A stretch of 64,000 nt of DNA from Bacillus sp. FSL H8-0547 (GTDB taxonomy: Bacteria > Bacillota > Bacilli > Bacillales > Bacillaceae). The translations under genes were made by a program, and so were the position numbers. The DNA lies in assembly GCA_038002745.1 (NCBI GenBank), contig JBBODD010000001.1, positions 3,348,001-3,412,000 of the forward strand. Direction: 5' to 3'. The notes under the pieces are model-generated. The model ran no database searches and had not been told where the DNA came from. It saw only the letters and a list, made by a program, of their open reading frames with translations. Position 1 is the stretch's first letter; every line of letters starts with the position of its first letter. Positions 6,911 to 58,395 of the stretch are shown here, one piece after another.

Positions 6911-7262
6911 TGTTGTATCGAGTTATAATCCTGTTTTAAAACACTTTGCAGGCGTTTGAGATGGGGAAAAGTGTTGTAATGGGATTTTAAGAACACTTTG
7001 GAGATGGGAGAGACGGGAGAAAGTGTTGTAATCGGATTTTATGAACACTTTGTGTATGGGAGGGGCGAGAGAAAGTGTTGTAATTGGTTTTTAAGAACAC
7101 TTTGAGAATGGAAGAAGCGGGTGTAATTGTTGTAATCGAGCTTTAAGAACACTTTGGAGATGGGAGAGGCGGGAGAATGTGTTGTAATCGGTTTTTAAGA
7201 ACAGTTTGGAGACGGGAGAGCCAAGGGAAAGTGCTGTAATCCTGTCTTAAGAACTTTGGAGG
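6911..7262. repeat. array A: seven-unit 52-bp palindromic tandem repeat
   Basis: AACACTTT(G) recurs at 6940, 6992, 7044, 7096, 7148, 7200 and 7252, exactly 52 bp apart each time (the last two copies are degenerate). In the better-preserved units an AAAGTGTT arm follows about 20 nt later, making a hairpin with a GGGAG-rich loop; the rest is TGTAATCGGATTTTAAG. It lies between the convergent ends of yqjX and the CDGSH gene. No ORF in it has a credible start. Confidence 0.92.
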
Positions 7263-7340
7263 CTCCGCCGGAAAAAGCAAACCCTGCTCTTTCCGGTGGA
7301 TTTTTTTAACCTTCTGAACTAAACGGCCGCCTCCGACCTC
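7259..7340. repeat. degenerate single copy of the 122-bp composite element
   Basis: An inner palindrome like type b (CCGCCGGAAAAAGC facing GCTCTTTCCGGTGG) is followed by TCTGAACTAAACGG, the diverged right end of the elements at 4.5 and 11.4 kb. It abuts array A and the stop codon of the CDGSH gene, where its hairpin may also terminate that gene. Confidence 0.6.
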
Positions 7341-7538
7341 CTACTCCGCCCTAACCACCGACTGAAACACGCCCTTATGCGAACCGTCGCAAAACGGCAT
7401 TTTTTTGGAGAGTCCGCAGCGGCAGAGAGAGAAGCTCTGTTTGGTCTGGAAGACGTTTCCTTCTGCGTCGATGAGTTCGATGTCTCCTGTTATGCGCAGG
7501 GAGCCGTTGTCGTTTACTTTAATTACGGGTTTGGTCAT
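7341..7538 (-). CDS. CDGSH iron-sulfur domain protein
   Basis: 65 aa, from ATG 7538 preceded by AGAAGGAGTG. A longer reading to 7739 would overlap the divergent yqkB gene and lacks a ribosome-binding site. The C-terminal half carries CRCGLSKKMPFCDGSHKG, the C-x-C...C-D-G-S-H signature that binds a [2Fe-2S] cluster with three Cys and one His (mitoNEET type). Probable electron-transfer or Fe-S handling role. It is divergent from the Fe-S protein yqkB, a suggestive pairing. Confidence 0.9.
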   Translation of the reverse strand: MTKPVIKVNDNGSLRITGDIELIDAEGNVFQTKQSFSLCRCGLSKKMPFCDGSHKGVFQSVVRAE

Positions 7539-7667
7539 CTTATCACTCCTTCTATATTTAGACGTTATTCGGCTGGGGCATGGGGTATGACAGGCAAGCC
7601 TCGGTGCGCATCTGACCGAGTTGTGATAAAATGTCCCTAAGCAACCTGAAACGAGGAGACATGACGT

Positions 7668-7991
7668 ATGGAAATTAAATGGACAGACCGTGCCATGAAA
7701 AAAATAGAAGGCAGTGTGCAGGCTCACTCCGATAAACAAGTGAAGCTCAAATATGATACGGACGGCTGCGGATGCGTGGTCAGCGGAGTGACTGCACTCT
7801 GGCTTGTTGATGAAAAAGACGGGGATGATGTTCAGATTGAGACGAACGCATATCCGGTTCTGGTTGAAAAATCAAAGATGGTGTTTCTGGATGAAAAGAT
7901 GACAATTGATTTTAACGAGACAGCGAACAGCTACATGCTGACATGTCCTTCGCAAATCTTGAATCCGCGCATGAGTCTGACTGTAAAGTGA
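7668..7991 (+). CDS. yqkB: YqkB, HesB/IscA-like iron-sulfur biosynthesis family protein
   Basis: 107 aa, the same length as I recall for B. subtilis YqkB. Opens [13 protein letters not shown] and contains [16 protein letters not shown], the cysteine-bearing segment of this A-type-carrier-like family, plus a late Cys (MLTCPSQ). The canonical C-terminal CGCG motif of IscA is absent, as in YqkB, so function as a cluster carrier is uncertain. The ATG at 7668 follows ACGAGGAGACA. yqkC follows 13 bp downstream. Confidence 0.85.
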
Positions 7992-8004
7992 GGTGGAGAG
8001 AAAG

Positions 8005-8247
8005 ATGAAGGACCGCTTAACAACTCTTAAAAACATCGCATTAAATAAAACATGGGTTTCGTTTTTGAACAGCAACCATCCGTACACCCTGCTTCACTGG
8101 TCGATCGGCGGAGTGTTTGAGGAAAAGAAGGATGTCTGGCTGCTTCAGGATGAAATGACATTTGAAGCACAGGAATTTGCCACAATTGATGAAGCAATTG
8201 CCTGGCTTGATGAACATATGCATGACATTACGGACGTGCTTGGATAA
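8005..8247 (+). CDS. yqkC: YqkC-like small protein (DUF2552 type)
   Basis: 80 aa. ATG 8005 is chosen because AGGTGGAG stands at the right distance; the in-frame GTG at 7993 overlaps that site. Soluble, Trp- and His-rich ([28 protein letters not shown]). Position between yqkB and yqkD matches B. subtilis yqkC. Function unknown. Probably co-transcribed with yqkB and ended by the hairpin at 8253. Confidence 0.7.
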
Positions 8248-8252
8248 ACCCC

Positions 8253-8288
8253 AAAAAGCCCTGATTCAGTTGGAATCAGGGCTTTTTT
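8253..8288. terminator. intrinsic terminator between yqkC and yqkD
   Basis: AAAAAGCCCTGATTC pairs with GAATCAGGGCTTTTTT across a 6-nt loop. It is symmetric, so it can serve both convergent genes. Confidence 0.92.
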
Positions 8289-8293
8289 ACGTT

Positions 8294-9214
8294 TTATACA
8301 GTTGCTTCCTGTTCTTTCATTTCTTCATAAAATTCATCAATGATCCGTTCATATTCCTCGCGGTTTTCGGTGTAGGACATGGCGTGGGCGCCTTTTTCAG
8401 CAAAGTACAGCTTTTTCATCCCGGATTTTTTCTCGAACAGCTGCTGGGTCATCGCTGACGGTATGTAATCGTCGTCTTTGCTGTGGATAAACAGAACAGG
8501 ATGCTGAATTCTGTCCATCACCGCAATCGGTGAAACGTCCTGGATGGTGTACCCGTCCCGCAGTTTCAGAAACCGCCTTGCAATCGGCATCACAAGGTAG
8601 CCGGGAAGCTTGAAGTCGGATTTCAGACGGTATAGCAGCTGCTCTTGAAGATCTGAAAACGGACAGTCGGCAATATAGTAATCAGCACCGTCTTCTACGA
8701 GTCCTGCATAAAGCAGCGTCGTGACGGCGCCCATGGATTCCCCGTGAATGCCGAGGTGCAGGTCATCGCCGACACGGTCCTTCAGCCAATGCACGACAGA
8801 CTGAAGGTCGTACTTTTCATAATGCCCGAAGCTTGTTGTTTTACCGCCTGTTTCTCCATGCCTTCTGTGATCATAGATCAGCACATTGATGCCCCGTTTT
8901 AAAAACAGCTTCATGTACTTGACGGAGTTAATCCGGTTCATGGTAACTCCGTGGCAGATAATGACATAGGAGGAGGTGCTGTGGGGGGCAATCAGATGGC
9001 CCCTGATGTCATATCCGAATTGGGACGGGATGGACACTTCAATTTTGTTGTAGGCTTCATACTCGCTTTCGTCGTAATGGCCGTCTTTTGTTTCGCGGTC
9101 AATAATTTCTTTGTCTGACTTCTTTCGCATGTACATCATCTGGTTGGTGAAAAAGAATCCTACGACAAAGATGTAGGAGAGGATGATGCCAGCTCCGATC
9201 AGCCACTTTTTCAT
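8294..9214 (-). CDS. yqkD: membrane-anchored alpha/beta hydrolase (YqkD)
   Basis: 306 aa. ATG 9214 is chosen because GGAAGGAAG is 7 nt upstream; ATG 9220 is too close. An N-terminal hydrophobic segment (about residues 3-22) anchors an extracytoplasmic domain. Seen: IICHGVTMN (oxyanion region), DHRRHGETGG, the nucleophile elbow GIHGESMGAV (Ser), a later Asp in HSKDDDYIPS and His in EKGAHAMSY, completing a Ser-Asp-His triad. B. subtilis YqkD has the same place and form. The substrate is unknown. Confidence 0.88.
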   Translation of the reverse strand: MKKWLIGAGIILSYIFVVGFFFTNQMMYMRKKSDKEIIDRETKDGHYDESEYEAYNKIEVSIPSQFGYDIRGHLIAPHSTSSYVIICHGVTMNRINSVKYMKLFLKRGINVLIYDHRRHGETGGKTTSFGHYEKYDLQSVVHWLKDRVGDDLHLGIHGESMGAVTTLLYAGLVEDGADYYIADCPFSDLQEQLLYRLKSDFKLPGYLVMPIARRFLKLRDGYTIQDVSPIAVMDRIQHPVLFIHSKDDDYIPSAMTQQLFEKKSGMKKLYFAEKGAHAMSYTENREEYERIIDEFYEEMKEQEATV

Positions 9215-9271
9215 CTGCATTCTTCCTTCCGCTGTATAATACATCCATTTTATCACGAAGAAGGAAAAGGA

Positions 9272-9308
9272 GAAAAACAAAAGCAGCAAGCACATGGGGC
9301 TTGCTGCC
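9272..9308 (-). terminator. terminator of the 42-aa gene
   Basis: Read on the minus strand, GCAGCAAGC pairs with GCTTGCTGC and is followed by TTTTGTTTTT. It sits directly downstream of the small ORF at 9312-9440. Confidence 0.8.
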
Positions 9309-9311
9309 GCG

Positions 9312-9440
9312 TTATTGTTCCGAGTTTTGGCGTTTTGTCGGATGTACAGCCTTTTCCATTTCTTCAAAAGCCATCATTTGCTTTGGCGTATCTGCATTCG
9401 GCTTGCCTTTTTGGCTCTTAGATGCCTTTTCGTTTGTCAT
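9312..9440 (-). CDS. small hydrophilic protein, 42 aa, unknown
   Basis: Too short for standard ORF cut-offs. ATG 9440 follows AGAAAGGAGCGG, a near-ideal Shine-Dalgarno, and a terminator follows the stop. Begins MTNEKASKSQKGKPNADTPK and is strongly charged and Lys/Gln rich, with no membrane segment. This style is seen in minor small acid-soluble spore proteins, but I do not recognise the family. Signals on both sides make it a real gene. Confidence 0.65.
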   Translation of the reverse strand: MTNEKASKSQKGKPNADTPKQMMAFEEMEKAVHPTKRQNSEQ

Positions 9441-9551
9441 GATATCCGCTCCTTTCTGTCATCTAAGATGTGAAATAAGAGGGAGAAATATACATGGAGG
9501 TGAAACAACTTGTCCGTTCGCTCCGTATAGATAAAAAGGAGAGTGACTGTA

Positions 9552-9845
9552 ATGAAATTAACAGGAATCGGTATAGCTGTTTCAAGCGCTGCAGGCTTCA
9601 TCAGCTATACAGCTGGAGATCTGCAGCTGCTGTTTATCGTGATGTGCGGGATCTCGCTTATCTGTTTTGGCATCTCGGGTTTTATGACCTATGCTTTTCT
9701 TGGAGGAGAGGCTATGCACACAAATTTCCAATCAGAAATAGCCGTGCATAGAAAGACAAGGGCAGATTGGGCAAAGGACTTATTTCTTGCAGGTCTGCCA
9801 AGCTTCGGGGCGGCAGTTATATCCACTGCTGTTTTATTCAGTTAA
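9552..9845 (+). CDS. small membrane protein (DUF5316-like)
   Basis: 97 aa, starting at ATG 9552 with AAAGGAG upstream; GTG 9543 overlaps that site. Three hydrophobic segments (about residues 4-20, 25-48, 75-95) separated by a charged stretch (NFQSEIAVHRKTRADWAKD). The layout resembles DUF5316 proteins (small, three helices, charged loop); that assignment is tentative. Its last 8 bp overlap the convergent mvaB gene. Function unknown. Confidence 0.6.
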   Translation: MKLTGIGIAVSSAAGFISYTAGDLQLLFIVMCGISLICFGISGFMTYAFLGGEAMHTNFQSEIAVHRKTRADWAKDLFLAGLPSFGAAVISTAVLFS

Positions 9846-10746
9846 GAAGCGTTTTTGACCGTTTGCTGAGCTGATACTGTTTGCTTTGAACACTTCCTGA
9901 AAGATGCGGCTCGATTACCTCAACTGCTTTCAGAAGCTGGCTCATGTCAATGCCTGTTTCGATGTTCAGAGCCTGCAGCATATGCAGCACGTCCTCTGTT
10001 GCAGCATTTCCTGTAGCACCGGGTGCGAAAGGACAGCCGCCGAGTCCGCCTGCAGAAGTGTCAAACCTGTCAACACCTGCCTGCAGCGCTGCGTATATGT
10101 TGGCAAGCGCCATGCCTCTTGTATCATGGAAATGGGCCGTAATCAGCACGTCCGGCAGCGCTTTTTTCAGCCGTGAAAAAAGCTCATGCACCTCAAGTGG
10201 ATTTGCCATGCCAATGGTGTCAGCTACACTTAAGTCATCAACTCCCGCATCTGCAAACTGTCTGCAAAGATCAACAACGGCATCCGCTTCTATTTTTCCT
10301 TCATACGGGCAATAAAAAGAAGTCGAAATACACGCCCTCACAAAAAAGTCTTCTTCTTTGAGCGAGCGGATCAGCGGCAGAAGCTTCTGCATGCTTTCTT
10401 CTGTTGTCGCGTTAATATTCTTTTGATTGAAGGTGCTGCTGACTCCCACAAAAAAAGCCACGTCTTTGCAGTTTGCTTCTTTTGCACGCGCAATCCCTTT
10501 TTCGTTCGGAGTCAGAACAAGGTTTCTGTTCTCATCGGAACAATAGGTGATGATGTCTCCAGCATCCTTCAGCTGGGGAACCCACTTTGGCGAGACAAAA
10601 GAGGTCAGTTCCATTTCTTTGAATCCTGCCTTTTTAAGTTCTTTAATAAACTGAATTTTAACGTCTGTCGGAATTTCATTTTTTTCATTTTGCAGCCCGT
10701 CGCGGGGACCGACCTCAATTAATGTCGCCTGTTTTGGCAGATTCAT
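9838..10746 (-). CDS. mvaB: hydroxymethylglutaryl-CoA lyase
   Basis: 302 aa. Cleaves HMG-CoA to acetyl-CoA and acetoacetate, the last step of leucine degradation. Seen: the TIM-barrel opening VGPRDGLQNE with the catalytic Arg-Asp, the metal-site motif AHFHDTRGMALAN, and the C-terminal lyase signature GGLGGCPFAPGATGN with its active Cys. These distinguish it from isopropylmalate and citramalate synthases. The start ATG 10746 is chosen over GTG 10755; neither has a strong ribosome site. The product acetoacetate is the substrate of the divergent thiolase/CoA-transferase operon at 12.0 kb. Confidence 0.95.
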   Translation of the reverse strand: MNLPKQATLIEVGPRDGLQNEKNEIPTDVKIQFIKELKKAGFKEMELTSFVSPKWVPQLKDAGDIITYCSDENRNLVLTPNEKGIARAKEANCKDVAFFVGVSSTFNQKNINATTEESMQKLLPLIRSLKEEDFFVRACISTSFYCPYEGKIEADAVVDLCRQFADAGVDDLSVADTIGMANPLEVHELFSRLKKALPDVLITAHFHDTRGMALANIYAALQAGVDRFDTSAGGLGGCPFAPGATGNAATEDVLHMLQALNIETGIDMSQLLKAVEVIEPHLSGSVQSKQYQLSKRSKTLLN

Positions 10747-10751
10747 AGGAA

Positions 10752-11397
10752 GCACCAGCCTTTCGGATTTTTGAGTACCTTCAATTTCTGGTTTTCAGGT
10801 TTTGAGGGTGCGATTCAGCAATTTGCGTACCCTCAAATTTTGATTTTGAGGTTTTGAGGGTACGATTCAGCATTTTGCGTACCCTCAAATTCAGATTTTT
10901 AGGTTTTGAGGGTACGAATCGGGATTTTGCGTGCCCTCAATTTTGGATTTTGAGGTTTTGAGGGTACGATTCCGCATTTTGCGTACCCTCAAATTTTGAT
11001 TTTCGGGTTTTGAGGGTACGAATCAGCATTTTGCGTACCCTCAAATCTTGATTTTCGGGTTTTGAGGGTACGATTCCGCAATTTGCGTACCCTCAATTTT
11101 GGATATTGAGGTTTTGAGGGTACGAATCGGCAATTTGCGTACCCTCAATTTTGGATTTTTGGGTTTTGAGGGTACGAATCAGCAATTTGCGTACCCTCAA
11201 TTTCGGATTTTGAGGTTTTTGTGGTACGAATCGGCATTTTGCATACCCTCAAATTTTGATTTTGAGGTTTTGAGGGTACGATTCAGCATTTTGCGTACCC
11301 TCAAATTCAGATTTTTAGGTTTTGAGGGTACGAATCGGCATTTTGCGTACCCTCAAATTCAGGTTTTTAGGTTTTGAGGGTACGATTCCGCATTTCT
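10752..11397. repeat. array B: twelve-unit 52-bp palindromic tandem repeat
   Basis: GAGGGTACG recurs at 10804, 10856, 10908, 10960, 11012, 11064, 11116, 11168, 11220, 11272, 11324 and 11376, always 52 bp apart; a decayed unit precedes it. In each unit TTTGAGGGTACG faces CGTACCCTCAAA across about 13 nt, followed by a T-rich TTTTGATTTTGAGG spacer. The central bases vary between a few forms (ATTCAG, AATCGG, ATTCCG), and palindromic arms are conserved. No unique spacers, so not a CRISPR array. Confidence 0.95.
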
Positions 11398-11886
11398 CAT
11401 TGTCCAGCTCCATCGCCCAGCTCCTCCGTCAGAACAAAATCCCCCAAAAAGTCAAACCCGGACTTTTCGGGTGATTTCTTTTCTGCCTGTCGGAGCTAAA
11501 CGGACGATTCCACTTTTCTCATTGTCCAGCTCCATCGCCTAACTCCTCGGCCAGAACGGATCCGCCGCAAAAAGCAAGCCCGGCTTTTTCCGACGGATCC
11601 TTTTCTGTCCTTCGGAGCTGACCAAGGCGATTCCGCTTTTCTCATTGTCCAGCTCCATCGCCCAGCTCCTCCGTCAGAACAAAATCCCCCAAAAAGTCAA
11701 ACCCGGACTTTTCGGGTGATTTCTTTTCTGCCTGTCGGAGCTAAACGGACGATTCCGCTTTTCGTATTGTCCAGCTCCGCCTCCTAGTCCTTCTGTCAGA
11801 ACAAAATCCCCGAAAAAGTCAAAACCGGACTTTTCGGTGATTTCTTATCTGACTGCCAGGCCTGAACAGTCGGCTCCGCTTTTCTG
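11392..11886. repeat. second array of 122/123-bp composite hairpin repeats (four units)
   Basis: TTGTCCAGCTCC recurs at 11400, 11522, 11645 and 11767 (122, 123, 122). Inner palindrome types run c, b, c, c. The first unit fuses directly to the last palindrome of array B, and the right end (CAGTCGGCTCCGCTTTTC) equals that of the 4.5-kb array. Between it and the thiolase start only about 140 bp of AT-rich promoter sequence remain. Confidence 0.9.
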
Positions 11887-12028
11887 ATGTAAGGGTTTAC
11901 ATATTCCCATATTAATAGTTTACTAAGAGTGTATGCAACTGAAAGCTGAATTTTGAAAAGATTGCAGGAATTTATCAGGATTTAGCGAAACCAATGGATA
12001 AAGCCATGACAAAGGGGATGAGTGTAGT

Positions 12029-13228
12029 ATGAGCAGCAATGAAGTAGTCATCGTGAGTGCTGTCCGCACGGCAATCGGGAGTTTCGGAGGAGCGCTTAAG
12101 GGTGTGTCTGCGCCGGAGCTTGGAGCGATTGTGATTAAGGATGCTCTTGAAAAAGCGGGTTTAAAGGGAGAGCAGGTTGATGAAGTCATTATGGGGAATG
12201 TGCTGCAGGCGGGACTTGGTCAGAATCCGGCGCGCCAGGCGGCTATGAAAGCGGGCCTTCCTGAAAATGTGCCGTCTATGACGATTAATAAAGTGTGCGG
12301 ATCCGGTTTGAAAACGGTCCATCTTGCTGCACAGGCAATTTTATCAGGGGATGCAGAGATTGTGGTTGCAGGCGGTATGGAAAATATGAGCCAGGCGCCT
12401 TACATATTGAAGAATGCGCGGGACGGATTTAAGATGGGCGATCAGAAGCTGATTGATACGATGGTTTCTGATGGTCTGACGTGTGCGTTCAATAATTATC
12501 ATATGGGTGTGACAGCAGAGAATTTATGCGATAAATATGAGATTAAGAGAGAAGAGCAGGATGAGTTTGCAGCATGGAGCCAGCAAAAAGCAGTGAAGGC
12601 GATCGAGTCCGGTACGTTCAAATCGGAGATTACTCCTGTAGTGATTCCTCAGCGAAAAGGGGATGCTGTAACGTTTGACACAGATGAATTCCCGCGAGCC
12701 GGCACAACGGCAGAGAAGCTCGGCGGACTTCGTGCAGCGTTTAAAAAAGAAGGATCTGTGACGGCAGGAAATGCGTCCGGTATTAATGACGGTGCGGCAG
12801 CTGTCGTGGTCATGAGCAGAAAAAAAGCAGAAGAGCTTGGCATTCAGCCCCTTGTTAAAATCACAGCCAATGGAAATGCAGGCGTAGATCCAAGCATTAT
12901 GGGGATTGGACCTGTCGCAGCTGTTCAAAAAGCGTTCCAAAAAAGCGGGCTGACAATGAATGACATGGACCTTGTCGAAGCGAACGAAGCGTTTGCGGCC
13001 CAGTCGATTGCCGTTGACCGCGAACTTCATTTTGAGAAAGAAAAACTGAATGTAAACGGCGGCGCCATTGCTCTTGGGCATCCAATCGGAGCAAGCGGCA
13101 CGCGCATTTTGGTCACGCTGATTCACGAAATGAAGCGCAGAAATGCAAAGCACGGCCTTGCCACCCTTTGCATCGGCGGCGGACAGGGTGTTGCGACAAT
13201 CGTTGAAAATCTTTCATTGGAGGGATAA
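12029..13228 (+). CDS. acetyl-CoA C-acetyltransferase (thiolase)
   Basis: 399 aa. Joins or splits acetoacetyl-CoA and acetyl-CoA. Seen: nucleophilic Cys in [12 protein letters not shown] (about residue 89), the [10 protein letters not shown] and EANEAFAAQ segments with an active His/Asn region, [14 protein letters not shown] with its His, and the C-terminal CIGGGQGVA Cys. The start ATG follows AAGGGGATGAG. First gene of an operon with scoA and scoB: the CoA-transferase makes acetoacetyl-CoA, which thiolase cleaves. With HMG-CoA lyase alongside, leucine and ketone-body catabolism is the likely purpose. Confidence 0.95.
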
Positions 13229-13927: not shown

Positions 13928-13941
13928 CAGGAGGCAGAGCT

Positions 13942-14610: not shown

Positions 14611-14676
14611 TCAGTCAAATCCCTTTCTAACATCGCCTTTTCTTGTATATAATGTGTGTATATAGGAGTGATCATC

Positions 14677-14968: not shown

Positions 14969-15004
14969 GTCGTTCATGGAAGATTGAAACGCAGTATACA
15001 AAAA

Positions 15005-18088: not shown

Positions 18089-18375
18089 TTGCTTTTCAGA
18101 AGTAAATGGATATAATATACATTAATAGATAATAAAATCATTGATAAAGAGAGTAATTATTTGTGGAAAATAAGCGAGTCAGGGATGGTGTAAGCCTGTC
18201 ATGAAGCAAGTAATGAACCGGACTTTTGAGATGCTTTCCTGAAATCAGTAGGGGGAGCCGGGGGAAACCTCGTTACTAATTGTGAGTGGTTTTTTAATTT
18301 TAAAAAACAAGTAGAGTGGTACCACGGGAATAAAAAGCTCCCGTCTCTTTTTTAAGAGACGGGAGCTTTTTTATT
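18089..18375 (+). promoter_or_regulatory. T-box riboswitch leader (argS)
   Basis: A TTGCTT-N16-TATAAT promoter (18089-18116) is followed by a structured leader. The T-box core GAGTGGTACCACGGG lies near 18313-18327, and a terminator stem AGCTCCCGTCTCTT / AAGAGACGGGAGCT with a T-run ends at about 18374. The stem I loop GGTGTAAGCC is present. A candidate specifier is CGG (18219-18221) after GAAC, an arginine codon, fitting the downstream gene. Uncharged tRNA-Arg binding the T-box would favour the antiterminator. Specifier call is tentative; T-box call is strong. Confidence 0.92.
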
Positions 18376-20240: not shown

Positions 20241-20855
20241 TTGATTATGATTAATGGAGGTTCTATTATCTTATTGGGTTTTATAGGTTCTCTCATAACT
20301 CGGAGTATTGTAATAGCAAGGAAACACAGAAACCAGATACACGTAAGCTGGTTTAAAGAAATGATCACCTTTCTTTTTATCATGTACCTATGTATGGTTG
20401 CTGCTGTGACGTTATTTCCTCTCCCAATCGGATATGATTTTCAATACGTGAATGTTGTTCACTTTATCAACTTTGTGCCACTTGTAGCTATTTTTGACGC
20501 TATTAATCAAATAGGAACTGCCTATGATGGTGATGTGCTGTTTATGGTCTCGCTTATTCTCAGAAACGTAGGCGGGAATATTTTATTATTGATGCCTCTT
20601 GGTTTTTTGGCACCGGTTGTATGGAATAAATTTAGGGGATTTAAAGAAGTTATTTTATTAGGCCTGGCAGTATCGGTAACCATTGAGATTTTACAGCTTG
20701 TAGAAAATGTTGCTGGTGCATGGGGACGAATAACAGATATTGATGATGTGATTTGCAATGTTTTGGGTGTCGGTTTTGGATACCTTATATACAGTCTTAT
20801 TTTAAAAGCTGGTGAAAAATATCAAATCAAAGGATTGAAAAATTTCAGTTCATAA
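20241..20855 (+). CDS. VanZ-like family membrane protein
   Basis: About 204 aa. Hydrophobic, with about five membrane segments; the C-terminal part has the VanZ-family layout, with GRITDIDDVICNVLGVGFGY containing the conserved Asp-Asp and Asn-x-x-Gly. VanZ relatives affect teicoplanin susceptibility in enterococci; the role of most members is unknown. The start is uncertain: TTG 20241 has ACAGGGGA upstream, GTG 20187 would add 18 residues, ATG 20247 is two codons later. AT-rich like argS; probably part of the same inserted segment. Confidence 0.75.
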   Translation: MIMINGGSIILLGFIGSLITRSIVIARKHRNQIHVSWFKEMITFLFIMYLCMVAAVTLFPLPIGYDFQYVNVVHFINFVPLVAIFDAINQIGTAYDGDVLFMVSLILRNVGGNILLLMPLGFLAPVVWNKFRGFKEVILLGLAVSVTIEILQLVENVAGAWGRITDIDDVICNVLGVGFGYLIYSLILKAGEKYQIKGLKNFSS

Positions 20856-40973: not shown

Positions 40974-41010
40974 AAAGCCGCTTCCGGTTGGGGGCGGCTA
41001 TTTTGTTTTT
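40974..41010 (+). terminator. lysA terminator
   Basis: AAAAGCCGC pairs with GGCGGCT, followed by ATTTTGTTTTT. Confidence 0.85.
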
Positions 41011-41044
41011 GGGGAAGGGGTAAAAGGCTGGCTATTACAGTGGA

Positions 41045-41575
41045 TGCATCCCTATAGAATTGAGCAGGTGAAATATGGGGTAGGAAATGCATCCCTATAA
41101 AATGGGGCGGGTGAGATATGGGGTAGGAAAAGAAGAAAATGCATCCTTATAAAATTGGGATGCGGAAATATAGGAGAGGAAAAGAGTGGAATGCATCCCT
41201 ATAAAATGGGGCGGGTGAGATATGGGGTAGCAAAAGAAAAAACTGCTACCCTATAAATCGGAGCTGCGGAAATATAGGGTATCAAAAAGGGAAAATGTAA
41301 CCCTATAAAAAGGAGCGGGTGAAATATAGGGTAGCAAAAGAAAAAACTGCATCCCTATAAATTGGAGCTGCGGAAATATAGGGTAGCAAAAGAAGAAACT
41401 GCATTCCTATAAAACGGAGCTGCGGAAATATAGGGTAGCAAAAGAAGAAACTGCATCCTCATCCCTATAAATCGGAGCTGCGGAAATATAGGGTAGTAAA
41501 AGACAAAAGTGCATCCCTATAAAATGGAGCTTCGGAATTATAAGGTTCCAATAAGAAAAACGCAACCTCTATATA
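41045..41575. repeat. array C: 52-bp palindromic tandem repeat (about eleven units)
   Basis: The ATCCCTATA landmark falls at 41048, 41091, 41143, 41195, 41247, 41299, 41351, 41403, 41455/41461, 41513 and 41565. All steps are 52 bp except one 43-bp step (9 bp lost from the spacer) and one 6-bp internal insertion. CCCTATA and TATAGGG arms flank about 18 nt (AAATCGGAGCTGCGGAAA-like), and the spacer GTAGCAAAAGAAGAAACTGC is purine-rich. Lies between the lysA terminator and the sigma-54 promoter region. Confidence 0.93.
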
Positions 41576-48668: not shown

Positions 48669-48676
48669 GATAGATG

Positions 48677-48780: not shown

Positions 48781-49698
48781 GTGAAAGATCTGCGAGAATC
48801 AAAAGAACTGCTAATGTACCGGAAGCTGAATGCCCGAAAGGCTTTGGATGCAGAAGAAGCAGCCCATTATCTTAACCTTGAAAAAGGATTTGATGGGGAG
48901 AAGGAGTTCGAGGTGTGGCTTAAACTTCATCAAGGGAACGGAATCATTCTGAGTGATCTGCTGCTTGAAACCAATCAAACAACTTATCAGGTTGATTCTT
49001 TGTACATCTCGCCGCAAAAAATCTATTTGTTTGAAGTAAAGAACTTAGAAGGAGATTACCACCTGGACAAAGATAAGTGGCTCTCTCCGGCTAAAAAAGA
49101 AGTCAAAAACCCCTTGCTGCAGCTGAGCAGAAACGAAACTCTGTTTCGAATCCTGCTGCAGGAACACCACTTTCAGCTACCCGTAGAAGCCATCCTGGTT
49201 TTTATCAATCCCCGTTTTCATCTCTATCAAGCATCATCCTCACACCCCATCGTTTTCCATTCCCAGCTGGACCGATTTGCAAAAACACTAAAAAAGAATT
49301 GTGTCTCCCCTCTAAAAGCCATTCACTCGAAGCTTGCGGAGAAGCTTTTGACACTTCATCAGGAGGATTCCCGTTTTGCGCGGCTGCCTGAGTATGGGTA
49401 TGACGAGCTTGAGAAGGGGGTGGGGTGCGGGTTTTGCGGGTCAATCTACTCTACTTTCCAAAACTCCAAGTTTCATTGCTCCAATTGTGAATTCGCGGAA
49501 TCTCATTTTCCAGCCATCCTGCGTGCGATAGAAGAATTTCAGTTTCTCTTTCCTGAAAGAAAGCTTACTGTTGAGCAGGTTTGGGAATGGTGTCATTTGG
49601 TAAAATCGAAAAAGACCATCAGGAAGATCTTAAACAATCATTTTTTACAGACAGGTAATGGCAGAGCAATTCATTATGTGCCACGTGAAAAAGTGTAA
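48781..49698 (+). CDS. NERD-domain (nuclease-related) protein with zinc ribbon
   Basis: 305 aa; GTG 48781 lies 7 nt past AGGAGG, while ATG 48775 nearly touches it. NERD domain about residues 35-150: EKGFDGEKEFEVWL, then YQVDSLYISPQKIYLFEVKN, which carries the D...E-x-K catalytic pattern of restriction-endonuclease-like folds. A C-terminal CGFCGS...CSNC ribbon (about residues 216-238) and a helix-turn-helix-like tail follow. NERD proteins are linked with DNA processing but mostly uncharacterised. Lone gene between ppiB and array D. Confidence 0.85.
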   Translation: MKDLRESKELLMYRKLNARKALDAEEAAHYLNLEKGFDGEKEFEVWLKLHQGNGIILSDLLLETNQTTYQVDSLYISPQKIYLFEVKNLEGDYHLDKDKWLSPAKKEVKNPLLQLSRNETLFRILLQEHHFQLPVEAILVFINPRFHLYQASSSHPIVFHSQLDRFAKTLKKNCVSPLKAIHSKLAEKLLTLHQEDSRFARLPEYGYDELEKGVGCGFCGSIYSTFQNSKFHCSNCEFAESHFPAILRAIEEFQFLFPERKLTVEQVWEWCHLVKSKKTIRKILNNHFLQTGNGRAIHYVPREKV

Positions 49699-49717
49699 AT
49701 TTAGTTAAATCCTCCTC

Positions 49718-50285
49718 CGCAAAGCGGAAAAAACAGGTGAGCTGGGTAAGCAAAGGGAGGAATCTTACCCAGCAAAGAGGAAAAAGCGGGCGAGCTGGGT
49801 AAGCAAAGGGAGGAATCTTACCCAGCAAAGCGGAAAAAACGGGTCAACTGGGTAATCAAAGGGAAGAATCTTACCCCGCAAAGAGAAAAAAGCGGGCGAG
49901 CTGGGTAAGCAAAGGGAGGAATCTTACCCAGCAAAGCGGAAAAAACGGGTGAGCTGGGTAATCAAAGGGAAGAATCTTACCCCGCAAAGAGAAAAAAGCG
50001 GGCGAGCAGGGTAAGCAAAGGGAGGAATCTTACCCAGCAAAGCGGAAAAAACGGGTAAGCAGGGTAAGCAAAGGGAGGAATCTTACCCAGCAAAGCGAAA
50101 AAAACGGGTAAGCAGGGTAAGCAAAGAGAGGAATCTTACCCAGCAAAGCGGAAAAAACGGGTCAACTGGGTAAGCAAAGGGAGGAATCTTACCCCGCAAA
50201 GCGGAAAAAACGGGTGAGCAGGGTAAGCAAAGGGAGGAATCTTACCCAGCAAAGCGGAAAAAACGGGTGAGCAGGGTAAGTAAAC
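49718..50285. repeat. array D: eleven-unit 53-bp palindromic tandem repeat
   Basis: GGGTAA occurs at 49744, 49797, 49850 (variant), 49903, 49956, 50009, 50062, 50115, 50168, 50221 and 50274, every step 53 bp. GGGTAAG pairs with CTTACCC across about 13 nt (CAAAGGGAGGAAT), and the spacer AGCAAAGCGGAAAAAACGGG is purine-rich. Units are nearly identical, pointing to recent homogenisation. Between the array and the FMN riboswitch (50286-50429) I see only AT-rich sequence that should hold the rib promoter. Confidence 0.95.
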
Positions 50286-50429
50286 GCATAAAACGTACTC
50301 TCAAAAAACCAGTATCCTTTTCTAAGCTGAAAATTCAATCTCCAATCAGAAAACCCCGGAATTAAATCGTTGCAATCTTCCGCATATCCGGATAAGATGA
50401 TAGAAAGGAACAATTTCATACTCATTGTT

Positions 50430-50572
50430 TTCCTTCGGGGCAGGGTGAAATTCCCAACCGGCGGTGATAAAGCAGATGCTTTTCAGTCCGTGACCCGGCT
50501 GCACATGGTGCAGGCGGTGGATCCAGTGAAATTCTGGAGCCGACAGTATAGTCTGGATGGGAGAAGGAACAC
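50430..50572 (+). ncRNA. FMN riboswitch (RFN element)
   Basis: TTCGGGGCAGGGTGAAATTC and CCAACCGGCGGT open the conserved FMN aptamer, with the later conserved blocks CCCGGCTGC, GGTGGATCCAGTGAAATTCT and GGATGGGAGAAGGA in order. FMN binding should favour the terminator at 50659 and switch off ribD-ribT. Confidence 0.97.
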
Positions 50573-50692: not shown

Positions 50693-50719
50693 GCATTCTA
50701 AAAGAAAGGGGATATGGTT

Positions 50720-51805: not shown

Positions 51806-51811
51806 AGCGAA

Positions 51812-52453: not shown

Positions 52454-52468
52454 AATGGAGGATACACC

Positions 52469-53665
52469 ATGGCATTTCATTCCATAAGTGAGGCAATTGA
52501 GGATTTGAAAAACGGCAGGGTTGTGATTGTCGTAGATGATGAAGACCGTGAAAACGAAGGCGATTTTGTAGCCCTTGCAGACCATGCTACTCCTGAAGTG
52601 ATCAATTTCATGATTAAACACGGCAGAGGACTTGTCTGTGTGCCGCTGTCAGCAGAATACGCGGAAAAGTTTCAGTTTCATCCGATGGTCAGCGACAATA
52701 CGGACCCGCATGGAACGGCGTTTACAGTGAGTATTGACTATAAAACCACTAAAACAGGGATAAGCGCTTCTGAACGATCAGATACGATAAAAGCGATTTT
52801 AAATGAAGATGCCGTTCCATCCGACTTTAAACGTCCGGGTCATATTTTTCCGCTTGTAGCGAAGCAGGGAGGCGTGCTGAGACGGGCAGGACATACAGAA
52901 GCTGCTGTTGATCTTGCGAGGCTCTCTGGTGCAAGCCCGGCAGGCGTCATCTGTGAAATTATTAAAGAAGACGGAGAAATGGCACGGGTTCCGGATTTAA
53001 TGGAAATTGCCGAGCACCACGGTTTAAAAATGATCACCATTAAAGATTTGATTCACTACCGCAATGTGTCTGATGCTCTTGTAAAAAGAGAAGCGGATAT
53101 TAAGCTTCCAACTGAGTTCGGCATGTTCAGAGCGGTCGGATATTCAAACGTTCTTGACGGCAAAGAGCATATCGCTCTTGTAAAAGGAGAAATTTCTCCT
53201 GATCAGCCAACTCTTGTGCGCGTCCATTCAGAATGTCTGACAGGTGATGTGTTCGGGTCAAACCGCTGCGACTGCGGACCCCAGCTCCATGCAGCGCTTG
53301 CCCAGATTGAAGAAGCCGGAAGCGGGATTCTTTTATATATGAGACAGGAAGGCAGAGGAATCGGTCTTTTAAATAAGATGAAAGCCTATGCCCTTCAGGA
53401 AGAAGGCTATGATACAGTCGAAGCCAATCATAAGCTTGGATTTGCCGATGATCTGAGGGATTACGGAATTGGTGCCCAGATTTTAAAAGATCTTGGCGTG
53501 GCAGAGATGAAGCTTCTGACGAACAATCCGAGAAAAATCGCAGGGCTTGAAGGGTACGGACTGACAGTTGTGGACCGTATACCGATTCAAATGCCTTCTA
53601 AAGAAGAAAATGAAGGCTATATGCAAACGAAAAAAGGAAAGCTTGGACATTTACTTAACCTATAA
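52469..53665 (+). CDS. ribBA: bifunctional DHBP synthase / GTP cyclohydrolase II RibBA
   Basis: 398 aa, AATGGAGGATAC before ATG. N-terminal DHBP synthase (about 1-200): [17 protein letters not shown] and [15 protein letters not shown]-terminal GTP cyclohydrolase [22 protein letters not shown] with the zinc cysteines, and [12 protein letters not shown]. Supplies both riboflavin precursors. Confidence 0.96.
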
Positions 53666-53682
53666 TATTGGAGGAAACAGTC

Positions 53683-54147
53683 ATGAAAACATACGAAGGT
53701 AATTTAGTCGGATCAGGATTAAAAGTAGCGGTTATCGTAGGGAGATTTAATGAATTCATTACAAGCAAGCTTTTGAGCGGGGCAACAGACGCACTGAAGC
53801 GCCACGGCGTAGAGGAAGAGAACGTTGAAATCGCATGGGTGCCTGGCGCATTTGAAATTCCGCTGGTTGCCAAAAAAATGGCCGCTTCAAACAAATATGA
53901 TGCAGTGATCACACTTGGAACGGTCATAAGAGGATCTACGACTCATTATGACTATGTCTGCAATGAGGCGGCTAAAGGAGTGTCGCAGGCATCCATGTCG
54001 ACAGGCGTTCCAGTGATTTTCGGTGTCCTGACGACTGAATCGATTGAACAGGCGATTGAGCGTGCCGGCACAAAAGCTGGGAATAAAGGCTATGAAGCAG
54101 CTGTTGCGGCCATCGAAATGGCGAATTTAATGCGCACATTGGATTAA
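53683..54147 (+). CDS. ribH: 6,7-dimethyl-8-ribityllumazine synthase
   Basis: 154 aa from ATG 53683 with TTGGAGGAAAC ahead; a TTG at 53668 in frame overlaps that site. Motifs [24 protein letters not shown] and the active His in [15 protein letters not shown]. Forms the icosahedral shell around RibE in bacilli. Confidence 0.96.
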
Positions 54148-54326
54148 TTTCGCTGAAAAGTGTTTAAAAAGCCCGGAAAACTGTTTATAATGTTCTGAGA
54201 GTGATTCTTGCCTGATTCGGGATCTGCTTAGGTGAACGGAAGAAACATGGACCGAACATCAGTCTGATGACAGGCTTTCATTTTTTGTTTTTGCTTTCTC
54301 TAATCGGAAGGTTATTTCGTTAATGA

Positions 54327-54692
<366 letters not shown>

Positions 54693-54742
54693 CTGCAGAC
54701 TTTCAGGACGTTGGGCAGGGACAGTATTAGTACCTGCTTTTA

Positions 54743-54780
54743 AAAAAACAGATGAAGCATATGCTTCATCTGTTTTTTTT
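54743..54780. terminator. bidirectional terminator, rib operon/ypuF
   Basis: AAAACAGATGAAGCAT is a self-complementary 16+16 hairpin with ATGCTTCATCTGTTTT and long flanking A and T runs. The distal arm overlaps the 3' end of ypuF on the other strand, encoding its LLLKKKNR tail. Confidence 0.95.
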
Positions 54781-55287
54781 CTTTAGCAGAAGACTTCTGT
54801 TCCGTTCTGCAATAACATCCGATCTGTCCCTCGTGGAATGTCTGTGAACGAGGGAGGCATCGGTAAGATTGCTTGGGTTTCCCCACGTCATGCCGTTTTC
54901 TTTACAGTGTGACTTCGCCTGCTTCAGAAGCTCTTCATCAGAAACCGGAAGACTGATGCTTTCATATGGCCGCTTTTGTTCGATTGCGAGAGATGTTTTT
55001 CTCATCAGCTCAAGAAGAGATTCGGGGTGCAGACCGAGTGAAGCAACCGCATCTTTTTCCTGCGAACAAATGGAAATGGCATTTTTAATCATCCGCTCTG
55101 CCCCGTTCCAGTTTTCCCTTCTGTAATGATAAAGCCCGACCGCAAGCTGAATGAGTCCGACCCAGTATGCCTTGCGCTTTCCGGGAGGATCTTCCTTCCA
55201 GTGTTCTTCAAGCACTTCATGGCATTCAAAATAGTCGCGGTCTCCGTGGAAGTGAACTAAATAATCTAAATAGGCTTCAGGATACAG
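54766..55287 (-). CDS. ypuF: YpuF, DUF309 protein with apparent CTG start
   Basis: 173 aa when read from CTG 55287: (L)YPEAYLDYLVHFHGDRDYF then ECHEVLEEHWKEDPPGKRK. The HGDRDYFECHEVLEEHW core is the DUF309 hallmark and needs this N-terminus. The first ordinary start (GTG 55215) falls inside the motif, and an in-frame TGA lies three codons upstream of the CTG. GAGGGTGAT sits 5 nt before the CTG, so initiation there is credible. Helical, function unknown; same place as B. subtilis ypuF, whose length is about the same. A sequencing or real ATG-to-CTG change is the alternative. Confidence 0.8.
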   Translation of the reverse strand: MYPEAYLDYLVHFHGDRDYFECHEVLEEHWKEDPPGKRKAYWVGLIQLAVGLYHYRRENWNGAERMIKNAISICSQEKDAVASLGLHPESLLELMRKTSLAIEQKRPYESISLPVSDEELLKQAKSHCKENGMTWGNPSNLTDASLVHRHSTRDRSDVIAERNRSLLLKKKNR

Positions 55288-55365
55288 ATAACATCACCCT
55301 CACATCAGAAAATATGTATCTTCAGTTTAGCATAAAGGGGCATCTTCCATGAAGAAATGAAACAC

Positions 55366-55392
55366 AAAAGGTGCTCATTAGCCTGAGCACCA
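55366..55392 (-). terminator. terminator of the YjcZ-type gene
   Basis: GGTGCTC pairs with GAGCACC; on the minus strand TTTTGTGTTT follows. Confidence 0.75.
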
Positions 55393-55420
55393 GAATGTTG
55401 CGGTCTTTAATAGGCGCTGA

Positions 55421-55516
55421 TTAGTACAGCCAAGCAGCTCCAACGATAATTAACAAAATGAACAATACAACGATCAGCGCAAATCCAGAACCGTAGCCAA
55501 AACCTTTATCTCCCAT
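55421..55516 (-). CDS. YjcZ-family sporulation protein, 31 aa
   Basis: MGDKGFGYGSGFALIVVLFI followed by LLIIVGAAWLY: a Gly-rich N-terminus and one membrane helix. This is the YjcZ/sporulation small-protein family (GYGSGFALIVVLFILLIIVG core), found in coats and membranes of spores. TAAGGAGGAATTAG precedes ATG 55516, and a sigma-K-like promoter lies 39 bp upstream. Below ordinary ORF cut-offs but unmistakable. Confidence 0.92.
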   Translation of the reverse strand: MGDKGFGYGSGFALIVVLFILLIIVGAAWLY

Positions 55517-55554
55517 TACTAATTCCTCCTTAAGAACTTTCGAATTTACATTGG

Positions 55555-55581
55555 TATCTTATGCAGGGCGCATTGATGTGT
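55555..55581 (-). promoter_or_regulatory. candidate sigma-K promoter of the YjcZ-type gene
   Basis: On the minus strand CATAAGATA (55563-55555) fits the sigma-K -10 CATANNNTA exactly, and ACAC (55581-55578) stands 14 bp upstream as the -35 (mACm). Confidence 0.55.
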
Positions 55582-55720
55582 ATGGGCGAATATCCCGGTT
55601 CTGGACTTTTTTCTCATTGTTCTCTGAATCACCTAAAATAGTAATGGAGATTGATCACATTATGTTCTATACTAAAGGGTAGTCTGCTTAAGCGGTACAG
55701 AATGAAGTGGTGGGATGAAC

Positions 55721-56464
55721 GTGCAGTACAAAGTGAAAATCGATGCATTTGAAGGGCCGCTGGATCTTCTCCTGCATTTAATCAATACACTTGAGATTGA
55801 TATTTATGATATACCGGTTGCTGAAATAACCGAGCAGTATATGCTCTATATACATACAATGAAAGAACTTCAGCTTGATGTGGCGTCTGAGTATCTGGTA
55901 ATGGCAGCAACGCTTTTGTCCATTAAAAGCGGAATGCTTCTTCCAAAACATGAAGAAGAGCTTGAAGAGGATGACTTTGGGTTTGAACCTGAAGAAGATC
56001 CGCGCGACGAACTGATGAGAAGACTGATTGAATACCGTAAGTACAAAGAAGCTGCAGATGATTTAAGACACATGGAAGAAGAACGGTCAAAGGTTTTTAC
56101 AAAGCCGCCCAGTGACCTTAGCGCATATGCCGCTGAGCCTGCTGCAGGATCAGATCCGGTGAATGTCACCATTTATGATATGCTAGGGGCTTTCCAGAAG
56201 ATGATGCGCAGAAAAAAATTGCAGAAGCCACTGCAGACGAAAATCGCCAGACAGGAAATTCCGATTGAGAAGCGGATGGATGAGATACTTGATGAATTCA
56301 GGCGAAATCCCCGCAGACGCAAATTTACCGAGCTGTTTCCCTCAGACCAGAAGGATCATCTAGTGGTAACCTTTCTAGCCATCTTGGAATTGATGAAAAA
56401 CAACAGCATCATGATCGAACAGGAAGAAAATTTTTCAGATATTTATATTCTGGGGAGGGTTTAA
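55721..56464 (+). CDS. scpA: segregation and condensation protein A
   Basis: 247 aa; GTG 55721 is placed 6 nt past GGTGGG, ATG 55715 touches it. Kleisin that bridges the SMC dimer: N-terminal [21 protein letters not shown], middle acidic linker ([19 protein letters not shown]), C-terminal winged helix ([25 protein letters not shown]). Coupled to scpB four bp on. Confidence 0.95.
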
Positions 56465-56468
56465 AGCC

Positions 56469-57053
56469 TTGGAGAAATGGAAATCCATTATGGAAGCCCT
56501 GCTGTTTGCTGCAGGTGATGAGGGGCTTTCAAAGAAACAGCTCACAGCCGTGCTTGAGATTGAAGAAGAGGTTGTAGCAGAAGCAATAGAAGAACTTCAA
56601 AAAGAGTATAAGAAAAAGCAGCGGGGCATTGAATTGATTGAAGTCGCAGGTGTTTATCAGCTGACAACGAAGAAAAAGCATGCCGCTTATTTAAAGAAAC
56701 TGGTTGAAACACCAAACCACAGCTCCCTGTCACAGGCAGCCCTTGAAATTCTTGCAATCGTAGCCTACAGACAGCCGATTACAAGAGCTGAAATTGAAGA
56801 GATAAGAGGAGTCAAGTCCGAGCGGCCCCTTCAGACACTCACAGCCAAGGTTCTTGTGAAAGAAGTCGGACGGGCGGAAGGAACAGGACGGGCCATTCTC
56901 TATGGAACGACCAAGGAATTTCTCGAGCATTTCGGCCTGAAGAACATTAAGGAGCTTCCTCCACTTCCCGAAAAAGAAGACGACGAGGCCTTCGGAGAAG
57001 AAGCAGATCTCTTTTTTGAAAATTTCAATCAGACATTTGAAGAAATCAAATAA
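56469..57053 (+). CDS. scpB: segregation and condensation protein B
   Basis: 194 aa, TTG start with GGGAGGG about 10 nt ahead. Two winged-helix domains: [22 protein letters not shown], then [20 protein letters not shown] and [20 protein letters not shown], with [19 protein letters not shown]. Acidic tail [16 protein letters not shown]. Forms the SMC-ScpAB condensin with ScpA. Confidence 0.95.
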
Positions 57054-57096
57054 TTTACACAATTGAAGCAGAACCTGTGGTAAAATAGGGTACAAC

Positions 57097-57127
57097 GGAA
57101 CAAAGGACACTCTTTGTTCCTTTTTTT
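57097..57127 (+). terminator. strong terminator/attenuator between scpB and the 135-aa gene
   Basis: GGAACAAAG pairs perfectly with CTTTGTTCC around GACACT, then TTTTTTT. Its T-run ends 25 bp before the next start codon, too close for a promoter in between. TAAAAT (57080-57085) upstream suggests a promoter whose transcript meets this hairpin first. Confidence 0.88.
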
Positions 57128-57152
57128 GAATCTAAATCAGGAGGGCAATCAG

Positions 57153-57560
57153 GTGTACATAACCATGTGCAGAGGCTATGAGTTAGAAAAAGAGATGCCG
57201 AATACATCCGAGGATTTTTTTAACCGCTCTGAAATCACGATTGTCACAGGTAAAACCGAAAAAACGTTTCACGTCCTGTATGTCAGGTACTTTGAAGAGG
57301 TGTTTGCCGGTCAAAACCCTGCCCTTTTCAAAGATGCAACAATAAAGGATGTGTTGGCGTTAATTTGCATTATTCAAAATGAATCGCTCTTAAAGCGGAA
57401 ACGATTTTATGTAAATGAGCAGGATGTTTTCCTCAAGTACTTGGATGGAATCAATCTTCAGCAGGCCCTGGAGATTCCGGCTCACGTAAAAGAGCATGGC
57501 AGGATCAGCCTCTTGGATGCTGCTGAAAAAATAAAAATGACAGTACATAAAGAAATCTAA
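57153..57560 (+). CDS. unrecognised 135-aa protein between scpB and ypuI
   Basis: GTG start at 57153 behind AGGAGGGC; extension to a TTG at 57114 would run through the terminator T-run. Begins VYITMCRGYELEKEMPNTSE, soluble, mixed alpha/beta, ending LLDAAEKIKMTVHKEI. I do not recognise the family. Middle part FHVLYVRYFEEVFAGQNPAL and LLKRKRFYVNEQDVFLKYLD look ordered. Sixteen bp before ypuI and probably co-transcribed with it. Reading frame well supported by the ribosome site. Confidence 0.7.
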   Translation: MYITMCRGYELEKEMPNTSEDFFNRSEITIVTGKTEKTFHVLYVRYFEEVFAGQNPALFKDATIKDVLALICIIQNESLLKRKRFYVNEQDVFLKYLDGINLQQALEIPAHVKEHGRISLLDAAEKIKMTVHKEI

Positions 57561-57575
57561 ACAAACGGAAGGGAA

Positions 57576-58076
57576 GTGTCTCAAGTGGGAAATGCCATTG
57601 TAAAAGCACAAACAGAACAAGTGGAACGTTTTTTGGGGAATGTCGTAAATGAGCTGAATACGTTTTTAAACCATGCGACAATCTCATCCTTTTTAAACGA
57701 GGAAGCGGGAGGAGAAGAGGAGTATTATGAAGATCTTTTCCGCAATCTGAGAAGGCTGTCCGTTTACTGCGAGGAAGGGCTTGAAGCGTGCAGAATTGTG
57801 CTTCAGAATGAGCCTTTCAGGAAGCCTGCTGCCGAAAAGGCGCTTTATAAAATATATCATCAGTGCATTGAAGAGTTTTATAATCCGAAAAATGATGTGT
57901 GGTATGAAGACAGCAGGTCCGCCTATACAGGCAAAAACGCCATCAAATACCGCCATGCTGCACCGGCAACCCTTCAAACGATGATTGCTTCACTCGAAAG
58001 CGGCTTTCAGGAAATCCGCGAAGAGCTTGAATACTACGAAACCGATTACCGTACAAAAATGATTCAATCCAAATAA
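57576..58076 (+). CDS. ypuI: YpuI (DUF3907)
   Basis: 166 aa from GTG 57576, or 163 aa from GTG 57585 (VGNAIVKAQTEQVERFL); the Shine-Dalgarno GGAAGGG is 2 nt from the first and 11 nt from the second, so the start is unsettled. All-helical soluble protein: LRRLSVYCEEGLEACRIVL, YHQCIEEFYNPKNDVWYED. B. subtilis ypuI lies in the same spot after scpB. Function unknown. Confidence 0.85.
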   Translation: MSQVGNAIVKAQTEQVERFLGNVVNELNTFLNHATISSFLNEEAGGEEEYYEDLFRNLRRLSVYCEEGLEACRIVLQNEPFRKPAAEKALYKIYHQCIEEFYNPKNDVWYEDSRSAYTGKNAIKYRHAAPATLQTMIASLESGFQEIREELEYYETDYRTKMIQSK

Positions 58077-58084
58077 ACGATGTG

Positions 58085-58113
58085 AACAGCTGTCCAGTGG
58101 GCAGCTGTTTTTT
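58085..58113 (+). terminator. ypuI terminator
   Basis: AACAGCTG pairs with CAGCTGTT across TCCAGTGGG, then TTTTT. Confidence 0.9.
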
Positions 58114-58129
58114 TGGTTTGCGGTATTGT

Positions 58130-58395
58130 TATGAGGTGCGGGCACGGTAATCGCACCCTCGGAAACCGAAAAACGATTTGGGAGGGTAAGCAACGTGGCA
58201 AATCGTACCCTCGGAAACCGAAAAACGATTTGAGAGGGTAAGCAACGTCCTGAATCGTACCCTCGGTAACTGAGAAACGATCTGCGAGGGTAAGCAACGT
58301 CGTGAATTGTACCCTCGGAAACCGAAAAACGATTTGAGAGGGTAAGCAATGTGGCGACTCGTACCCTCCCAAGCTGTAATTCGATTTCAGAGGAC
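58130..58395. repeat. array E: five- to six-unit 52-bp palindromic tandem repeat
   Basis: GAGGGTAAGC occurs at 58182, 58234, 58286 and 58338, with decayed units at about 58130 and 58390; steps are 52 bp. GAGGGTA faces TACCCTC across about 17 nt (AGCAACGTNNNNAATCG), and the spacer is CGGAAACCGAAAAACGATTT, itself containing a short CGGAAACCG dyad. Lies between the ypuI terminator and the dacB promoter. Confidence 0.92.

Follow-up and report, generated by a model that had tools for sequence, protein, structure and literature searches.

Between its genes, Bacillus sp. FSL H8-0547 carries numerous tandem arrays with a unit of 52 or 53 bp, five of which lie in the 64,000-nucleotide stretch analysed here (contig JBBODD010000001.1, positions 3,348,001 to 3,412,000; hereafter the window). 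We propose, with a probability of about 0.5, that these are phased arrays of binding sites for a dimeric protein and that they have spread with the replication fork. The proposal draws on the dyad structure of the unit, on the uneven distribution of change between units of one array, and on an orientation that follows the fork.

A lag scan of the whole window and Tandem Repeats Finder (TRF) agree on five gaps with such arrays, as a preliminary description of the window had reported. The scan places period 52 at 6921-7270, 10737-11425, 41072-41489 and 58115-58410 and period 53 at 49683-50329; the only lags below 130 to appear are 52, 53, 104, 106, 110, 122 and 123. The arrays are as follows, with copy numbers from TRF.

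6921-7270, no strand assigned: 52-bp array of about six units (5.4 copies), arms AAAGTGTT / AACACTTT, heads GTG-N20-CAC.
10769-11395, plus strand: 52-bp array, 12.1 copies, 12-bp arms CGTACCCTCAAA / TTTGAGGGTACG; breaks the fork rule given below.
41044-41573, no strand assigned: 52-bp array, 9.2 copies, arms TATAGGG / CCCTATA.
49719-50284, minus strand: 53-bp array, 10.7 copies, arms GCTGGGTAAG / CTTACCCAGC.
58149-58400, minus strand: 52-bp array, 4.2 copies, dyad GAGGGTA-N17-TACCCTC.

The inverted arms measure 12 bp at 10769, 10 bp at 49719, 8 bp at 6964 and 7 bp at 41088 and 58149, reproducing the 7-12 bp range first given for them. All five arrays lie between called genes. Three had been placed past or just past a terminator, and direct reading finds T-run terminator-like hairpins, judged by eye without a terminator scan, ahead of three of them (about 6884-6914, 40974-41014 and 58086-58117). 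The GGGTA/TACCC core ascribed to four arrays is likewise recovered: those at 10769, 49719 and 58149 form one cluster at a similarity of 0.40 and that at 41088 enters at 0.25, with the array at 6964 (arms GTGTT/AACAC) standing outside.

These arrays are part of a genome-wide set. The host genome (4.23 Mb in two contigs) was sampled as 60 fixed 20-kb stretches, making 1.264 Mb together with the window, and tandem arrays of at least 100 bp were counted by period rather than by sequence, as the preliminary description had suggested. Period 52 or 53 accounts for 45 of the 65 arrays (40 of 58 in the 1.2 Mb outside the window; 29 of 42 in the first 864 kb and 16 of 23 in a further 400 kb). Of the 20 remaining arrays, half belong to a 122/123-bp repeat, and period 21 occurs once in the 65. 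The sample thus has a sharp peak at 52/53 bp, above chance. The 45 arrays, 34 of period 52 and 11 of period 53 with a median of 7.7 copies, occupy 19.3 kb, about 36 arrays per Mb. A similarity search added 10 arrays to give an own-genome set of 55. Of 55 arrays checked against our own hexamer-scored gene calls, two overlap a short called open reading frame by more than 60 bp. Convergent gaps hold 16 of 51 arrays with a crude gene caller and, with a better one, 14 of the 48 whose two flanks could be assigned; among background gaps the figure is 143 of 780. We do not press this excess, because the similarity search supplied 10 of the 55 arrays.

In sequence the arrays are diverse. Their units were compared in an anatomy set of 55 arrays, comprising 29 own-genome arrays of the first sample, 13 more found by similarity to the main family, and so biased to it, and 13 from congeners. 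At a similarity of 0.40 this set forms 27 clusters, the largest of 25 arrays, and the 29 first-sample arrays form 21. At 0.25 the 55 own-genome arrays fall into nine clusters, with 35 in a single one, and no pair of shuffled consensuses (0 of 1485) reaches 0.22. Such clustering supports distant common descent with local homogenisation, in line with what was first put forward for the window. Given this distant kinship among so many families, inheritance may account for part of the constancy of the period.

Repeats of this size have been catalogued before. For 176 Bacillus genomes, PMC8161180 records a total of 4029 tandem repeats. The 51-53 nt range accounts for 1886, which keep their length while their sequence varies and often contain short sequences plus their reverse within one unit; the paper's authors propose a nucleoid protein or small RNAs and term the repeats enigmatic and of unknown function. 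By the features compared, the window arrays are members of this 52-nt class (Subirana and Messeguer, 2021). They are likewise non-coding, 51-53 nt long and constant in size with changing sequence; they come in many families per genome (21 clusters at 0.40) with other sizes rare (45 of 65 arrays at 52/53 bp); they have 4.2-12.1 copies where the class has at least four; their dyads combine a short sequence and its reverse; and the host, a Metabacillus relative, falls among Bacillus or near Firmicutes. No tested feature excludes them. The preliminary description had allowed for an already named repeat family: the class is indeed published, so novelty is lost on that count, and no family name was encountered. 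The main text of PMC8161180 lacks the strings 'palindrom', 'orientation' and 'leading', and no other title on later work or on the orientation of the class stood among the matches listed; the dyad spacing, half-site constraint and fork polarity described below appear to be additions to the class as the main text presents it.

Most arrays have a dyad as their unit: two half-sites of about 13 bp stand in inverted orientation around a centre of about 5 bp, and their G/C heads are separated by 20-21 bp, as in TTGAGGG-N21-CCCTCAA, TTGATGG-N21-CCATCAA, TGAAGGG-N21-CCCTTCA, AGTGG-N20-CCACT and AAAGTG-N20-CACTTT. The heads are spaced by about two helical turns and the unit measures five. Inverted arms with at least five of six pairs matched and G as the inner base peak at gaps of 20-23 bp (7, 8, 5 and 9 of 21 clusters, respectively), against a shuffle control (n = 200) in which the best-scoring gap of each shuffle has 3.2 clusters on average and at most 5. 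Compensated arm changes, which had been expected of a genuine family, occur between families (GAGGG/CCCTC, GATGG/CCATC, GAAGG/CCTTC, GTGG/CCAC) but hardly within arrays: there, out of 3871 pair cells, 380 are changed on one side and 16 on both, with 7 of the 16 complementary (11 distinct states, 4 complementary). With so few double changes, single units do not strictly maintain their pairing, and within-array compensation fails to prove a hairpin, whether RNA or cruciform.

Change between units is unevenly distributed over the dyad. The register was fixed on the consensus alone, and units were then compared with the consensus of their own array in 52 of the 55 arrays of the anatomy set; L069:16842, L193:10126 and L194:15970 yielded no register, and weak registers at L045, L057:18551, L075:15937, L171, L173 and L180 were kept. 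Divergence affects 17.2% of cells in the central 5 bp (369/2150), 6.1% in the half-sites (664/10933), which lie at 3-15 bp from the axis, and 10.2% in the outer part of the unit (885/8663). Half-sites diverge less than the centre (p = 7e-7) and less than the outer part (p = 3e-7), and within them the heads are nearly invariant, with 10 of 844 cells divergent (1.2%) compared with 12% at G/C columns elsewhere. None of 1000 random rotations attains the centre, half-site or head value, and with the main cluster removed (27 arrays) the order is kept (p = 0.008 against the centre, 0.0025 against the outer part). Constraint on heads and half-sites is hard to obtain by neutral homogenisation alone and agrees with a dimer-binding site that leaves its centre free; the pattern is what a dimeric DNA-binding protein would be expected to leave, short of proof.

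The orientation of the arrays follows replication. The GC skew of the samples flips near 1.8 and 3.95 Mb and dnaA lies at 1,801,062-1,802,378, placing the origin near 1.80 Mb. The main supercluster numbers 35 arrays. Left of the origin, 18 share one direction and 1 is reversed; to its right, 14 have the opposite direction and 2 do not. Agreement with the chromosome arm is thus 32 of 35 (Fisher p = 7e-7). The exact dyad GGGTAAGCA-N13-TACCC has 126 copies at 18 loci in the genome and changes strand at the origin without exception: the 75 minus-strand copies (10 loci) all lie at 0.108-1.784 Mb and the 51 plus-strand copies (8 loci) all at 1.943-3.578 Mb. Array pairs with a similarity of at least 0.5 agree with the fork in 88 of 90 cases, those on different arms being inverted in 50 of 52; at a similarity of at least 0.22, 187 of 225 agree. 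The three exceptions to the rule occupy two codirectional gaps and one divergent gap, and two of them, at 3.359 Mb (window 10769) and 1.019 Mb, are alike in sequence. An initial bias relative to flanking genes had suggested a transcription rule. This is ruled out by the convergent gaps, in which 10 of 10 arrays follow the fork, as does the one array between genes running against it; gene direction therefore does not explain the orientation.

The same polarity is found in unrelated repeats. The 122-bp repeat, by inspection unlike the arrays in sequence, is fork-oriented at 30 of 31 loci of the 1.264-Mb sample, including 8 of 8 convergent and 6 of 6 divergent gaps; one of the 31 (1,802,999) adjoins dnaA and its arm is uncertain. 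After removal of tandem arrays, the 122-bp repeat and gene overlaps, other dispersed intergenic pairs agree with the fork in 29 of 30 cases, most belonging to two families of about 190 and 140 bp, for which one scanned copy each gave no Rfam match. Since repeats that are unrelated have the same polarity, it probably reflects how small repeats spread, and is probably a trace of dispersal through lagging-strand DNA, the controls weakening any reading of it as a function peculiar to the satellites. IS608 and ISDra2 target the lagging-strand template (PMC6006769); the transposase family to which they belong has no match in the host genome. In 44 of 55 arrays the fork-direction strand has the higher stability, compared with 151 of 243 array-free gaps, and it is purine-rich (mean 0.596, above 0.5 in 46 of 55, against 0.518 and 157 of 243); strand stability, considered as the cause of polarity, gave no mechanism.

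In the window the 122-bp repeat forms two arrays, at 4469-5128 and 11382-11855; it is both tandem and interspersed and has hairpin-like inverted parts. Fork-oriented dispersed repeats start, by conversion from genome positions for the 190- and 140-bp kinds, at L037:12684, L038:2895, L060:1728, L041:19570, L044:3436 and L053:14702 in one group and at L061:4741, L042:8303, L047:11080 and L072:13905 and 18540 in a second.

On the proposed explanation, selection would maintain the arrays through a dimeric DNA-binding protein, or through several paralogues, one per sequence family. The putative dimer would occupy each unit on one helix face and line up along the array, and the bound array would form an intergenic patch that organises the nucleoid or chromosome; new sites would be reached through single-stranded lagging-strand DNA, a route common to other small repeats. 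A wider version, which we put forward only tentatively, extends to the small non-coding repeats of this lineage as a whole, including the 52/53-bp satellites and a minimum of three interspersed families unlike them. All would be copied by way of lagging-strand DNA in single-stranded form and thereby locked to the fork, the satellites being the subset with a selected dyad operator for a predicted dimer family in a five-turn register. The preliminary description had offered two causes for the constant period. For selection on length and phasing by a dimeric or nucleoid protein, the constant period and half-site constraint speak in favour, with the period perhaps partly inherited; a copying mechanism of fixed length may also have operated, and the fork-locked orientation common to an unrelated repeat points to dispersal coupled to replication. 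The register, with heads flanking N20/21, a free centre and a five-turn unit, shows which bases to mutate and predicts a same-face array of dimers, and the shared orientation makes the spread of such bacterial repeats testable.

Several observations weigh against this proposal. One sequence-specific protein does not explain the wide sequence differences between families, whose clusters are moreover not fully independent. When the inner base is left free, arm matches are raised broadly over gaps of 17-25 bp, in a count made without shuffling. Half-site constraint could also come from the recognition site of a copying enzyme. Fork polarity is common to several kinds of small repeat, and outside the main supercluster it is not evident: in five smaller clusters (17 arrays) the best agreement is 4/4, 3/3 (one arm only), 3/4, 2/3 and 2/3. 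The second contig has 0 arrays in 60 of its 112 kb, where about 2 are expected, too few to inform. Finally, transcription in B. coagulans (PMC8625621) makes a role as RNA possible.

Comparison across the genus bears on how the arrays change. By RibD the nearest named relative is Metabacillus idriensis, at 74%, in a comparison from which very near records were possibly left out. Seven species were compared, G000 (the host genome) to G006, of which G003 is close (RibD 95%, most aligned DNA 91-95%) and has arrays in all five orthologous gaps. Its gap lengths differ from those of the window by 102, 364, 204, 53 and -78 bp, about 2, 7, 4, 1 and -1.5 units, so that by arithmetic on the gap anchors the shifts are roughly whole units in 4 of 5 gaps. 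Before ribD, a 52/53-bp array is present in 5 of 7 species, with differing sequences (G004 and G006 are singletons at 0.40); in G001 and G005 the upstream gene of this gap was not found and TRF gave no 52-bp array in the whole 80-kb blocks. Gaps 1, 2 and 5 contain 52-bp arrays only in G000 and G003, and the 41-kb gap was anchored only in G003.

Polarity recurs in these congeners. In G002, taken as M. idriensis, 14 of 16 stretches agree with the local skew (18 family-A matches at 17 loci, 16 tested; of the two that disagree, one is a 59-bp fragment), as do 3 of the 4 tested among 28 family-A matches in G003. A 21-nt family in G001 agrees at 11 of 13 loci on the assumption that the skew switches past 1.97 Mb, in an unsampled region; the sampling points for skew in that genome were limited to 0.5, 1.5, 2.5, 3.39-3.47 and 4.5 Mb. 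Of the 13 loci, four (1.570, 1.618, 1.945 and 1.968 Mb) fall between the samples that bracket the switch, and one is the query. As separate observations, the G001 gap orthologous to that of window array 10769 holds a 21-nt array (L176:11500-11690), and a 53-bp array of the same species (L194:15970-16665) also gives 41, 94 and 135 in TRF, as if 12 bp were missing from some units. In G003, block positions 20253-20507 hold a 52-bp array of 4.9 copies, near whose place the window has (about 4421-4466) what by eye resembles one decayed GGGTA-family unit.

That the arrays are selfish satellites without a cellular role, spread and lengthened by a fork-coupled process that recognises the conserved half-sites, we consider less likely, whether the route was displaced lagging-strand DNA annealing at another fork or a putative single-strand nuclease. 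The orientation common to unrelated repeats, the near-whole-unit length changes between close species and the patchy occurrence of arrays in gaps 1, 2 and 5 would all follow from such a process, but the five-turn period across differing sequence families would be left unexplained. Y1_Tnp (PF01797), the transposase family whose members target single strands, is missing from 5 of the 7 genus genomes, with 0 matches in the host genome, and the single array tried, of family A, matches nothing among 72,556 plasmids and 50,697 phages, leaving an origin from either unsupported.

A role as RNA, with transcribed arrays forming chains of hairpins that serve as a small RNA, a sponge or 3' end protection, is improbable. 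The arms are complementary and 52-nt arrays are transcribed in B. coagulans (RNA-seq; PMC8161180, PMC8625621), but orientation tracks replication and not transcription, as the convergent gaps and the array between fork-opposed genes attest. The conserved inner part of the half-sites (3-9 bp from the axis) is, by inspection, not self-complementary in most families, the exceptions being 10769, 49719 and L193. Wobble pairs arising from one-sided changes show no clear strand preference (113 on the plus strand, 89 on the minus, not sorted by transcribed strand), and Rfam has no match on any array in the window or at four other loci. Together the sequence patterns favour duplex DNA over RNA as the working form; circular folding of consensus units was uneven (z from +1.3 to -6.2) and was not used as evidence. 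Polar guidance of an FtsK/SpoIIIE-like chromosome translocase, suggested by the fork polarity, is very improbable: in 24,474 bp of arrays, both strands, what we take to be the SpoIIIE octamer, GAGAAGGG, occurs once and what we take to be the FtsK motif, GGGNAGGG, not at all, every unit is an inverted pair, and the polarity is common to unrelated repeats.

Among known systems, REP/BIME elements, which go with RAYT transposases, also present clustered intergenic inverted arms, and a transposase of the IS200 kind is tied to REP. Single-strand transposases of that kind aim at the lagging-strand template (PMC6006769). The arrays resemble REP/BIME elements in their inverted arms and differ by their strict five-turn tandem period, and the absence of Y1_Tnp from the host genome counts against a RAYT-driven origin. 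REP palindromes themselves are grouped into GTAG and CGTC super-families in the title of PMC3733652. A CRISPR array was rejected because the whole unit repeats, with no unique spacers between identical repeats; cas genes were not searched for. The 20-21-nt Bacillus tandem repeats described in the same papers as the 52-nt class are likewise constant in length, at about two turns, with a different unit and sequence.

As to surroundings in the window, the 41044-41573 array follows lysA and a terminator-like hairpin, the 49719-50284 array lies upstream of a flavin mononucleotide (FMN) riboswitch and ribD, and the 58149-58400 array precedes a D-Ala-D-Ala carboxypeptidase-like gene. The T-box leader at 18132-18351 and the FMN riboswitch at 50427-50572 are ordinary.

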